Below are positions 39,372-45,027 of a stretch of DNA of 45,027 bases, one piece after another; the first letter of the stretch is position 1; each line of letters opens with the position of its first letter. The notes under the pieces were generated by a model that was given only the letters and a program-made list of their open reading frames with translations, searched no databases and was not told where the DNA came from. Made by a program: the position numbers and the translations under genes. Where the stretch lies: NCBI GenBank assembly GCA_021371915.1, contig JAJFVG010000038.1:1-45027 (forward strand), in the 5' to 3' direction. This DNA comes from Nitrospiraceae bacterium. GTDB taxonomy: Bacteria; Nitrospirota; Thermodesulfovibrionia; Thermodesulfovibrionales; Dissulfurispiraceae.

Positions 39372-42017
39372 TTATTGAACAAGCTCGGCTGCTGCTGTCT
39401 TTTCAAAGACCAGCTCACTGCCATTGTAATCAACTTCTACCTTATCTCCCTCGCTGAAAGCGCCTGAGAGCAGCTTTACTGCAAGAGGATTGAGTATTTC
39501 CCTCTGTATTGTCCTTTTGAGCGGCCTTGCCCCATAAACAGGATCATATCCTGCTGATGCTATGTGCGCCTTTGCAGCATCAGTGAGTGTGATATCGATC
39601 TTTTTGTCTTCGAGATACTTTTTCATCCTGCTCACCTGTATATCAACCACCTGCCTGAGCAGTTCTTCACTTAATGGATTAAAGATGATCACCTCATCTA
39701 TCCTGTTTATGAACTCAGGTCTGAAGAATGACCTCAGGTCTTCCATCACCTTGTCGCGGAGGTCCCTGTTGCTGCTGCCTGACCAGTGCGCTGGCGCTTT
39801 TTTTGTGCTGCGCTCGAGTATTTCCTGTATATGGCTGCTGCCTATGTTGGATGTCATTATCACCACTGTATTTCTAAAGTCCACTGTCCTGCCGTGTCCG
39901 TCAGTAAGCCTGCCGTCATCAAGCAGCTGCAAAAGCACATTGAATACCTCCTGATGCGCTTTTTCCACCTCATCAAACAGCACGACCGCGTATGGCTTTC
40001 TGCGGATCGCCTCTGTAAGCTGTCCGCCCTCATCATATCCCACATAGCCTGGAGGCGCTCCTATCATCCTGGCAACTGTGTGCCTCTCCTGGTATTCGGA
40101 CATGTCTATGCGCACAAGCGCTGTTTCATCATCAAACATAAACTCAGCAAGAGCCTTTGCAAGCTCTGTTTTTCCGACTCCTGTCGGCCCCAGAAAGAGG
40201 AATGAACCTATCGGCCTGTTTGGATCCTGAAGCCCTGCGCGCGACCGCCTTATGGCATCTGAAACAGCTCTTATCGCATCCTCCTGTCCAACAACACGTG
40301 TGCTTATGGCTGATTCCATATTGATGAGCTTGTGTATTTCGCTCTCCAGCATCCTTGCCACAGGTATGCCTGTCCACTTGGAAACCACTTGTGCAATATC
40401 CTCTTCATCCACCTGCTCCTTGAGCATCTTTCTTGTCTGCTGTGCTGCATCAAGCCTGCTGCTTTCTGACTCGAGCTCTCTCTGGAGTTCGAGCAGCTTG
40501 CCGTACCTCAACTCTGCTGCCCTGCCAAGGTCTCCCTCGCGTTCAGCCTTTTCAGAGTCCATCTTTGCTGTCTCGATCTGCTCCTTTATGTCGCGTATCT
40601 TTTTGATGATCTCTTTTTCGCTCATCCACTGCGCGCGCAGCTCATTGCGCTGGCCTTGAAGCTCTGCTGACTCCTGGCCGATCTTCTCTATCTTGCGTTT
40701 TGCATCAGCGCTGCCGTCCTTAACAAGAGCCTGCCTCTCTATCTCAAGCTGCCGCAGCCTGCGCTCTATCTCATCCAGCTCAACAGGCATGCTGTCAATT
40801 TCCATTCTTAGTTTTGCTGATGCCTCATCAATAAGGTCTATTGCCTTGTCCGGCAGAAAACGCTCTGTTATGTATCTATTTGAGAGCATGACAGCAGCTA
40901 TAAGAGCAGCGTCCTTTATCTTTACTCCGTGATGCACCTCATACTTGTCCTTGAGCCCCCTTAAAATTGATATTGTGTCCTCAACAGAAGGCTCGTTTAT
41001 CATCACCGGCTGAAACCTTCGCTCCAGCGCTGCATCTTTCTCTATATGCTTCCTGTACTCATCAACAGTCGTTGCTCCTATGCACCTGAGCTCTCCTCTT
41101 GCCAATGCAGGCTTCAGCATGTTTGATGCATCCATTGCTCCCTCAGCAGCGCCTGCTCCTACAAGAGTGTGCAGCTCGTCGATGAACATGATTACTTCAC
41201 CTTCTGACTGCTCCACTTCCTTGAGTACAGCCTTGAGCCTTTCTTCAAACTCGCCCCTGTACTTTGCGCCTGCTATAAGATTGCCAAGGTCCAATGCTAT
41301 GACCTGCTTGTTGCGCAACGTTTCAGGCACATCACCGGCAACTATTCTCTGTGCAAGGCCCTCCACAATAGCTGTCTTGCCGACTCCAGGATCGCCTATC
41401 AGAACAGGGTTGTTCTTTGTCCTCCTCGATAAGACCTGAACAATTCTTCTTATCTCCTCATCCCTGCCTATAACTGGATCGAGCTTTCCTTTCTTCGAAA
41501 GGTCGGTCAGGTTTTTACCGTATTTTTTGAGAGCCTGGTACTTCTCTTCAGGATTGGGATCAGTCACCCTGTGGCTGCCCCTTATCTCCTGCATGGCTGC
41601 AAGCACGCTGTCCGGATTTGCTCCGTTTCTCTTGAGTATTTCTGAAGCCTTGTCATCTGATCCTGCAACAGCAAGAAGCAGATGCTCAACGCTTATGTAT
41701 TCATCGCTCATATGTTCTGCGCGCTTCTCAGCGTCTTCAAGCACGGTCTTCAGTTTAGGCGAAATATAAACCTGGTCCATCGGCACAGCGCCTGATACCT
41801 TGGGCAGCTTGTCGAGCTCTTTTTCGAGTTCAGTGCGTATTGCCCTCAGGTCAGCTCCAACCCTCTTGAGTATCTGGACGCTGAGGCCTTCTTCGTTCTG
41901 AAGCAGGCCATGCAGCAGATGCAGCACATCAAGCTGCTGATTGCCTTTTTTTGCTGCAACAGCCTGCGCATCCTGTATCACTTCCTGGCTTTTGAGCGTT
42001 AATTTATCGAGTCTCAT
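39372..42017 (-). CDS. clpB: ClpB protein disaggregase
   Basis: ClpB is a hexameric AAA+ disaggregase that works with DnaK/DnaJ. The full-length 881-residue protein has an N-terminal double-repeat domain, AAA-1 with Walker [10 protein letters not shown] and Walker [16 protein letters not shown], a coiled-coil middle domain (about 400-540, [15 protein letters not shown] and following), and AAA-2 with [10 protein letters not shown] and [11 protein letters not shown]. There is no ClpP-binding loop signature that I can see. A TAGGAGG Shine-Dalgarno lies 7 nt before the ATG. It is the third gene of the heat-shock operon, 18 nt after hspR. Confidence 0.97.
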
Positions 42018-42035
42018 GCATATTCCTCCTAAAAC

Positions 42036-42389
42036 TTATTCCTCTGAAAATATTTTTTTAAGCCTGCGGTGAAAGTTCTCTCTCATATCCTCTTCCATGC
42101 TGTCCATCAGTTGCAGCAGCTCATCCTGAAGAGACTCGAACCGGTTGCGCATCTGAAGTATCACATCCACGCCTGCCTTGTTCACACCCAGCTCTTTTGT
42201 CAGCTTTATCACCATGTTGAGCCTGTCAACATCTTCCTGCGTATAAAGCCTCTGCTGATTCACCCTGTGCGGATGCACAAATCCTTCCCTTTCGTACATC
42301 CTGAGTGTCTGCGGATGCACCTCGAGCATCTTCGACACAACGCTTATCATGAACAGAGGCGCTTCCTTATCCTTTTTGTTCCTGTTCAT
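42036..42389 (-). CDS. hspR: HspR-type MerR-family heat-shock repressor
   Basis: This 117-residue protein has a MerR-type winged helix (PLFMISVVSKMLEVHPQTLRM, YEREGFVHPHR) and a C-terminal helical part. HspR represses dnaK/clpB operons in Actinobacteria and several other phyla, with DnaK as co-repressor. It starts directly after the dnaJ stop (TAGATG, no gap). The order dnaJ-hspR-clpB supports autoregulation; a HAIR-like repeat at 43487-43507 is the candidate operator. Confidence 0.92.
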   Translation of the reverse strand: MNRNKKDKEAPLFMISVVSKMLEVHPQTLRMYEREGFVHPHRVNQQRLYTQEDVDRLNMVIKLTKELGVNKAGVDVILQMRNRFESLQDELLQLMDSMEEDMRENFHRRLKKIFSEE

Positions 42390-43457
42390 CTATCTGCTCC
42401 CCAGCCCTTTGCGCGGGCTCTCTTTGTATGCTGTCTCTACCTCTTCAACAGCCTCTTTCACCTTCTCGCTTATATGTTTGGGAACAGCGATTATTATGTC
42501 CACATACTGATTGCCATGCGCCTTTGTCTTTGCGGATACAAAACCCTTGCCGCTCAACTTGAACCTCTGGCCGCCCTGCGTACCAGCTGGTATCTTCATG
42601 ATCGCTTCGCCATCCATGGTTGGAACCTCCACCTTTGCGCCAAGCGTTGCTTCGCCAAATGTGACAGGCAACTGCATGAATATGTCATTGCCCTTGCGCT
42701 TGAAGAGCGGATGCGGTTTAAGCGAAACCCTTAGCAGAAGATCGCCTGGAGGCCCTCCGGCTGTGCCGGCATCTCCCATGCCCCTCAGTTTTACAACCGA
42801 GTCATTATCAACTCCTGCTGGTATCTTCACCTTCAGGTTTTCTGATGATGAAGTGCTGCCCCTGCCTTCGCATTTGCGGCACAGTGCTGTTGCTGATCTG
42901 CCGGCTCCACCGCACTCGCCGCATGGCTGCGCCATTTTGAAAAATCCCTTTGAAGCATCTGTATGTCCTGTGCCCTTGCACCTGCTGCATGTCTCAAAAG
43001 ACTCTGCGCCAGTGCCTCCGCACGATCTGCAGGAAGCATTTCTTGAGAGAGCTATGGGCTTTGTCACACCGCTGTAAGCTTCTTCAAGGGTAAGTTCTAT
43101 GGGATACTCGATATCAGATCCGCGCGCCTGCATGGAGCTTTCACGAAAGCCGCGCATACCAAATATGTCGCCAAATATATCCGTAAAATCAAAAGGCTGG
43201 CCTTGCCCAAAACCGCTAAAACCCTCAAACTTGAAAGAATCTCCCGCAGTGTCATATTCATTCCTCTTCTGAGAATCTCCCAGCACTGCATAGGCCTCAT
43301 TAATCTCCTTGAACTTCTCTTCAGCGCTCTTGTTGCCAGGATTCATGTCAGGATGGTATTTACGTGCGAGCTTCCTGTATGCCTTTTTGATATCTTCTTG
43401 GGATGCTTTTTTATCAACATCCAGAATCTTGTAATAATCTTTTACGCCAGTTGTCAT
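42390..43457 (-). CDS. dnaJ: DnaJ co-chaperone
   Basis: This is a 355-residue type I DnaJ. The J domain (about 5-70) includes HPD in KYHPDMNPG, followed by a short Gly/Phe-rich region ([19 protein letters not shown]). Four zinc-finger repeats are intact: [24 protein letters not shown] and CRKCEGRG. The substrate-binding C-terminal domains follow. It stimulates DnaK ATPase and delivers clients; dnaK and grpE are not in this window. A GGGGG Shine-Dalgarno precedes the ATG. It is the first gene of the heat-shock operon. Confidence 0.96.
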
Positions 43458-43659: not shown

Positions 43660-44382
43660 ATGATAATAATACCTGCTATTGATCTTAAAGACGGACAGTG
43701 CGTAAGGCTTTTACAGGGCAAAAAAGAGGATGCAACCGTATACTCTGACGACCCGGCATCAACAGCCAGAAAGTGGCAGTCTTGCGGAGCCCAATTGCTG
43801 CATGTTGTAGACCTCGACGGCGCATTCACAGGCAGCCAGTCAAACATCGAGAGCATAACAAACATCAGAAAAGCTGTATCAATGAAGATACAAGTTGGCG
43901 GAGGCATAAGGGATCTGCAGAAAATTGACAGCCTCTTTTCAGCAGGCATCGACAGGGTAATCCTTGGCACAGCAGCCATAAATAATCCTGATCTTGTGAG
44001 CAAGGCGTGCTCGAAATATCCTGGCAGGGTGCTTGTGGGCATTGACGCAAAAAAAGGTTTCGTTGCGATCAAGGGGTGGACAGAGACAACTGAAGTTACA
44101 GCAGTTGATCTGGGTAAAAAGATGGCAGAGCTCGGCGTATCAGGCATCATCTATACAGACATATCAAGGGACGGCATGCTCCAGGGCCCAAACATAGAGA
44201 CCACAAAAGAGATGGCTTATGAGCTTCCTATCCCGGTAATTGCCTCTGGCGGCATTTCTGTAATGGATGACATAAAAAACTTGCTCACAATAAAAGGATT
44301 ATGGGGCGCTATAACAGGCAAGGCAATATACTCAGGAACCCTTGACCTGACTGAAGCGATAAAAACAGCAGAGGCAAGATAG
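43660..44382 (+). CDS. hisA: ProFAR isomerase
   Basis: HisA isomerises the ProFAR intermediate (phosphoribosylformimino-AICAR-phosphate) in histidine synthesis. The 240-residue TIM barrel has Asp8 in IPAIDLKDGQCVRL, VDLDGAFTG, the phosphate loop QVGGGIRD, VGIDAKKG, YTDISRDGMLQGPN with the second catalytic Asp, and IASGGI plus GAITGKAIYSG. It lies upstream of hisF, as in many his operons, but with an unusually long 312-nt gap. Its -10 box is 5 nt from the ATG. Confidence 0.96.
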   Translation: MIIIPAIDLKDGQCVRLLQGKKEDATVYSDDPASTARKWQSCGAQLLHVVDLDGAFTGSQSNIESITNIRKAVSMKIQVGGGIRDLQKIDSLFSAGIDRVILGTAAINNPDLVSKACSKYPGRVLVGIDAKKGFVAIKGWTETTEVTAVDLGKKMAELGVSGIIYTDISRDGMLQGPNIETTKEMAYELPIPVIASGGISVMDDIKNLLTIKGLWGAITGKAIYSGTLDLTEAIKTAEAR

Positions 44383-44427
44383 CCTGTGGATGAATAATTA
44401 AGGATGTGCGTTCAGATTTTTTAGCAT

Positions 44428-44632
44428 ACTGAAACTATCCTGCAATCTGGATAAATGTTTAAAGGAATATAAAGTATGCATGTTTTTTTGAGTTTACTGC
44501 ACGGGTCTATTTAACAGGGGCAAGTAACACCTTGCCCCGTCACAAACTGACGCTGAACGTAAGTTAATAGACAAGTCCGGATTAAATTGTTAAAGATAGT
44601 TTCAGTGAACTCAAAAAAACATGCATACTTTA
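44428..44632. repeat. palindromic intergenic element between hisA and hisF
   Basis: Two 30-nt arms (44470-44499 and 44603-44632) are inverted copies with one mismatch. Inside lie a shorter inverted pair (44505-44515 and 44563-44572) and a hairpin GGGGCAAG-N6-CTTGCCCC (44517-44538). ACTGAAACTATC at 44428-44439 also has an inverted copy at 44595-44606 that overlaps the right arm. Both arms end in TA, as in small non-autonomous elements of the IS630/Tc1 type, but no transposase is present. It may be a MITE-like insertion or a structured RNA. The rest of the 44383-44694 gap shows nothing except the hisF Shine-Dalgarno. Confidence 0.75.
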
Positions 44633-44694
44633 CGATATTAATCAAATTTAGCTTTTAATAATATTTGTCGCATGTATTTTTTCTGGAGGATTGA

Positions 44695-45027
44695 TTGTTC
44701 ACAAAAAGAATCATCCCGTGTCTTGATGTAAAAGACGGCCGCGTTGTAAAAGGCGTAAGCTTTGTTAATCTGCGCGATGCCGGAGACCCTGTGGATAATG
44801 CAAAATTCTACGACGAGCAGGGCGCTGACGAGCTTGTCTTTTTAGACATAACCGCATCGCACGAAAAAAGAAACATCATACTCGACATCGTCGAAAAGAC
44901 AGCAACAGATGTCTTTATGCCGCTCACAGTAGGCGGTGGCATACGCACTTTTGATGATATAAGAAACCTGCTAAACTCAGGCTGCGATAAGGTATCTCTC
45001 AACACAACTGCTGTTAATGACCCTGAC
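44695..45027 (+). CDS. hisF: imidazole glycerol phosphate synthase subunit HisF (partial, 3' end beyond window)
   Basis: HisF is the cyclase that, with HisH, makes imidazole glycerol phosphate and AICAR. The first 111 of about 255 residues are present: [19 protein letters not shown] with the catalytic Asp11, [28 protein letters not shown], and [11 protein letters not shown]. The start is TTG at 44695, after a TGGAGGA Shine-Dalgarno. Unlike hisA it has a proper ribosome-binding site, consistent with being an internal or separately led gene after the palindromic element. Confidence 0.95.

Follow-up and report, generated by a model that had tools for sequence, protein, structure and literature searches.

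The window analysed here is a 45,027-nucleotide stretch of a Nitrospiraceae bacterium contig (JAJFVG010000038.1, assembly GCA_021371915.1), which ends with the genes hisA and hisF (Table 1). The two coding regions are separated by 312 nt; hisF starts with a TTG codon at 44695, and a GGAGG motif lies at 44685-44689. Upstream of hisA, the genes clpB, a MerR-type regulator (hspR-like) and dnaJ are consecutive on the minus strand (39372-43457). The hisA-hisF gap contains a self-folding element of roughly 165 bases, spanning 44470-44632.

Table 1. Features of the hisA-hisF region and parts of the element.
Feature	Position	Strand	Evidence
hisA, upstream of the element	43660..44382	+	PF00977, E=1.5e-85; hisA in nearly all searched relatives
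Degraded inverted copy of the element 3' end	44400..44439	-	Source of the 12-nt crossing repeat
5' arm of terminal stem, TAAAGTATGCATGTTTTTTTGAGTTTACTG, 30 nt	44470..44499	+	29/30 complementary to 44603-44632; equivalent arms in all family members
Conserved junction motif CACGGGT	44500..44506	+	Retained in nearly all family members
Short second stem, 5' strand CTAT	44507..44510	+	Pairs with 44596-44599; covaries in the family
GC-rich 8-bp hairpin, GGGGCAAG-TAACAC-CTTGCCCC	44517..44538	+	98.8% of cells paired (70 distinct sequences), some compensatory changes
Variable inner segment	44539..44594	+	Aligns poorly between copies
Second stem 3' strand and TTT spacer, ATAGTTT (family consensus GTAGTTT)	44596..44602	+	
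3' arm of terminal stem, 30 nt	44603..44632	+	29/30 complementary to the 5' arm
hisF, downstream of the element	44695..45027, cut by window end	+	PF00977, E=3.7e-40; directly after hisA in most relatives

The initial annotation had described 30-nt inverted arms matching at 29 of 30 positions between hisA and hisF, and this was confirmed. The sole difference between the arms forms a G-U pair, and six shuffled versions of the gap gave 30-nt inverted repeats with 17-18 matches at best, never more than 18 of 30. RNA folding of 44420-44640 gave -75.9 kcal/mol (z = -8.2), with none of 200 shuffles equally good. The short palindromes nested inside the arms and the GC-rich 8-bp hairpin are real. Regarding the terminal TA, both window arms carry it, but it is not a general feature of copies elsewhere.

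A 12-nt repeat (44428-44439/44595-44606), whose pairing would cross the main stem, had been thought to allow a second fold. The repeat is exact in the window, but the alternative fold is not conserved: the 12-nt pairing of the sister species includes one A-C mismatch and one G-U pair. Since this damage is uncompensated, the alternative fold was not accepted. The repeat is better read as belonging to a decayed element end: 44400-44439 matches the reverse complement of the element's 3' end at 28 of 36 aligned positions, and none of 2000 mononucleotide shuffles scored as high.

Among the readings first proposed were a MITE-like insertion and a family of dispersed repeats, to be looked for in the same genome and in relatives. 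The 1.8-Mb draft genome of the window holds one copy and no others; multiple copies were found in relatives. The sister species (G001) has one copy in the same hisA-hisF gap with 92% identity. Two pairs of its arms changed on both sides (TATGCAT/ATGCATA to TAAGAAT/ATTCTTA), and two other arm positions lose pairing. Most relatives in the window's taxonomic family have a short hisA-hisF gap without the element, and a few have longer unrelated gaps. A diverged copy was found in G005, from another genus of this family, with a conserved core (TGCACGGGTCTAYT..AACAGGGGC) and different arms. Genomes were then searched with two covariance models built from the element (R1 and R2), giving 18 strong copies in G005, 11-14 each in G043, G054 and G090, and further copies in G017, G016, G070 and G098. 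Weak model matches in G022, G006, G012, G018 and G041 were left out of the family, although the one in G006 looks real by eye.

In genus g29, which belongs to another family of the same order, all eight sampled genomes carry the element; BLAST with the g29 consensus gave 24, 20, 16, 15, 11, 7, 6 and 2 matches in them, some partial. A phylum-wide sample of Nitrospirota showed matches in only 9 of 396 genomes. Arm-sequence DNA matches in G087 and G072 lie inside apparent coding sequence and were dismissed as chance. None of three core patterns had an exact match in viral contigs, and a core pattern searched in 84,980 genomes matched only in the two Nitrospirae MAGs already known. No Rfam family was found at the gathering threshold or with a plausible score, the best matches being plant miRNA models far below the cut-offs, and the literature search returned general repeat papers, none describing this repeat family. 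The family is a previously uncatalogued one of dispersed, non-coding intergenic repeats in Thermodesulfovibrio-type Nitrospirota.

Family members are about 160-180 nt long. A terminal stem of 25-40 bp encloses a constant architecture, running from the CACGGGT junction on the 5' side through a short stem, the GC-rich hairpin and a variable stretch to GTAG-TTT on the 3' side. The loop of the GC-rich hairpin ranges from about 12 nt to a long extension. At L115, L116, L118, L119, L122 and L123, the hairpin has the long extension, whose stem is of the AAAAAATCTTTGATTTTTT type; such copies form a second size class of the element and make up about half of those in G005. In an alignment of 11 sequences, made by MAFFT without structure and with the pairs chosen by the analyst, double changes were present in 13 of 26 pairs. 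With 70 sequences they were present in 22 of 26 pairs, with 169 double-change cells against 36 expected from shuffles, in an alignment that was fitted to the covariance model and leans towards it. Both results were above every shuffle and slid control.

The arms behave differently from the core. Between G005 copies, 5' arm identity averages 53%, whereas core identity over its first 26 nt is 89%; within each copy the arms are about 95% complementary. This bears on a classical terminal-inverted-repeat (TIR) MITE, derived from a DDE transposon of the IS630/Tc1 type with a TA target, whose sequence-specific transposase would be missing from the assemblies. Such an element would account for the terminal inverted repeats, the small size, the intergenic dispersal, the terminal TA of the window copy and the conserved ends of the g29 elements (AAGGAGGCTG/CAGCCTCCTT). 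However, a sequence-reading transposase does not predict arms that vary almost freely in G005 and yet stay complementary; the TA is not general, no duplication was seen, and the inner stem and hairpin covary. We consider this origin unlikely.

Mismatches were unevenly distributed. Counts were 56 G-U (over 14 columns) against 12 A-C (over 7 columns) in the g29 outer stem, and 13 G-U against 5 A-C outside g29, with the limit that the copies are related, so the counts are not independent and the raw values overstate the significance of the wobble bias. Since double-stranded symmetry alone predicts equal numbers, the excess of G-U over A-C favours a folded single strand.

Nearly all copies sit in short gaps between ORFs, in both orientations, and their neighbours include hisG/scpA, ruvA/ruvB, an oxidase operon, parA and lysA. 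Relative to the flanking genes, 13 copies are in convergent, 37 in co-directional (16 + 21 by direction) and 13 in divergent arrangements, with no preference, where orientations rest on ORF-based gene calls and neighbour names were read from translations. The initial annotation had also suggested a structured leader affecting hisF. Such a leader was considered here as a cis-regulatory attenuator or riboswitch-like RNA. The element's position between hisA and hisF, its conservation in the sister species, where two arm changes are compensatory, and the G005 copy that adjoins hisG agree with this role. Nevertheless, the other copies lie beside unrelated genes in every orientation, no promoter- or terminator-like site is present in 44300-44760, and the hisA-hisF gap of most relatives is without the element. 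The leader proposal is not supported and is very improbable.

Element ends are sharp, and the flanks are not conserved between copies. G017, a congener of G005, has no element at the G005 sites ruvA/ruvB, hisG/scpA and oxidase operon, and several congeners of G043 are likewise empty at one of its sites. When empty or near-empty sites were aligned, no target-site duplication was readable against the too large intergenic drift. Dispersal, sharp ends and absence from relatives' sites support past mobility but not present-day movement, many g29 sites being common to several species (about 88% identity). Several other orthologous g29 gaps contain arm remnants only, or nothing, as if the element had been lost there by internal deletion.

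At four orthologous gaps (L095/L132, L100/L133, L109/L111, L127/L176), the element has opposite orientations, which may be inversions or separate insertions, as the immediate flanks differ. At two others (L181/L162, L187/L129), the core was replaced between the same arms. The swapped cores (L181:1513-1688, L187:1731-1912) are rich in GAGCAGTAG-like hairpins, and the congener site has an ordinary element. Since orientations differ and two cores were swapped, recombination involving the arms probably happens. Such events, together with the long near-perfect arms, also fit a reading in which template switching or gene conversion within the element keeps a DNA palindrome symmetrical and no folded strand is under selection. 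Gene conversion, however, does not predict the strand asymmetry of G-U over A-C mismatches, and the conserved junction and the covarying short stem and hairpin inside the arms also speak against this explanation, which we regard as improbable.

Two further arrangements were observed. In the g29 copies at L082, L106, L125, L126 and L137, extra sequence like GGCAGGCATGTGTAA lies just outside one end of the copy, as if a second repeat often neighboured the element. At L109:1487-1780, an intact element is directly followed by the remnant arm of another (ATCGGCAATTCAGACACAGCCTCC), which suggests nested or repeated insertion at one site.

Regarding the mobiliser, no transposase was found beside solo or partial ends in twenty g29 regions, where solo ends flank ordinary genes, and no autonomous element sharing the terminal repeats was found around them. 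A Y1 (RAYT/TIRYT) transposase was rejected for this function, since it has the wrong inverted repeats and a patchy presence among carriers. The Y1 regions of carriers have their own unrelated inverted repeats, with only one weak element match (E=0.004), and Y1 genes are absent from the carriers G000, G001, G017, G054, G072 and G154. At L199, L201, L204, L206, L210, L211, L212 and L216, long inverted repeats stand on both sides of the Y1 genes and begin with GGGGTCAGG-, GGGGACAC- or AGGGACAC-like motifs, a layout that resembles the TIRYT arrangement (PMC3733652).

Each copy could also be transcribed on its own as a functional small RNA or a ribozyme. The conserved junction nucleotides and covarying stems are consistent with this, but no sigma-70-like promoter is found near the window copy, no Rfam family matches, copy number goes from 1 to 24, and the element is lost at many sites; this possibility is judged quite remote.

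The ERIC/IRU repeats of enterobacteria are imperfect palindromes of 127 bp. ERIC is intergenic, dispersed and non-autonomous, folds whole as one long stem-loop and can affect co-transcribed mRNA (PMC2229807, PMC2267715). The Nitrospirota element is the same in its intergenic, dispersed and presumably non-autonomous nature and its single long stem-loop, a likeness that is architectural only, with no sequence relation known. The ends of ERIC are reported to contain TA, with duplication of the target (PMC2229807). In contrast to ERIC, the Nitrospirota element has arms that are hypervariable between copies yet complementary, around a conserved core. Other bacterial MITEs (Correia/NEMIS, RUP) are below 200 bp, with terminal inverted repeats and stable RNA stem-loops (PMC2229807). 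Their size, terminal repeats and stem-loops are the same as in the Nitrospirota element, but for the latter neither a target duplication nor a transposon bearing its ends was found. Like MITEs in general, the element is short, non-coding and dispersed, with terminal inverted repeats.

REP/TIR repeats associated with RAYT or TIRYT tyrosine transposases are intergenic palindromes too, and the Nitrospirota element has a GTAG tetranucleotide at its junction. Some carriers hold Y1 transposases flanked by long TIRs (PMC3733652), but these (GGGGTCAG..., AGGGACAC...) are unrelated to the element, and several carriers have no Y1 genes, one of them with 15 matches. REP sequences are also shorter, 20-40 nt compared with 160-180 nt. 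Invertons have inverted arms around an asymmetric core, as the element does, and its orientation is opposite at some orthologous gaps; however, no invertase or promoter was found, and the apparent flips may be separate insertions, given the differing immediate flanks. By comparison of these features, the element is closest in its working to ERIC and the other MITE-like repeats of bacteria. Because the tested transposase association failed, it was not filed as a MITE of known parent or as a REP/TIRYT repeat.

The copies are dispersed in gaps in either orientation, have sharp ends, are absent from some orthologous gaps and keep their pairing despite sequence turnover. The best explanation, which we hold to be probable, is a structured dispersed-repeat family, MITE/ERIC-like and mobilised in trans, of which the hisA-hisF copy is a passenger. 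The repeat-family proposal was thus supported through relatives, whereas terminal TA duplications and a matching transposase were not. Mobility and a structured, compensating RNA had been set as alternatives, but both signatures were found together.

According to this explanation, the element would be small and non-autonomous and would be moved by separate machinery. Trans mobilisation is suggested because no transposase lies at solo ends, the Y1 repeats are unrelated and several carriers have no Y1 genes. The mobilising machinery, or the life cycle of the element, would recognise a folded single strand (RNA or ssDNA) and not the arm sequence. Recognition of, or selection on, this strand is proposed because the arms change in pairs, and it would explain how they diversify and stay complementary. 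A more specific version is a structure-addressed selfish miniature element, which would spread through recognition of its folded strand; the recognised core would be the junction motif and hairpin, and the arms would diversify freely but always in complementary pairs. We put it forward tentatively, as less probable than not. Insertion of the hisA-hisF copy would date to the common ancestor of the genus's two known species. If it is co-transcribed, a strong hairpin would stand between the hisA and hisF coding regions and might incidentally affect the hisF mRNA.

Dispersed palindromic repeats are common. What is unusual in this family is that the terminal repeats are about half identical between copies of one genome and about 95% complementary within each copy. 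The family lets one ask directly whether sequence recognition, arm-to-arm conversion or folded-strand selection maintains such repeats. With the covariance model, genomes can be searched for it, and insertion and loss can be traced by comparing carriers of up to about 20 copies with congeners that have very few. In genome annotation, the family accounts for a long hairpin inside a biosynthetic operon, which might otherwise be mistaken for a leader or a terminator.
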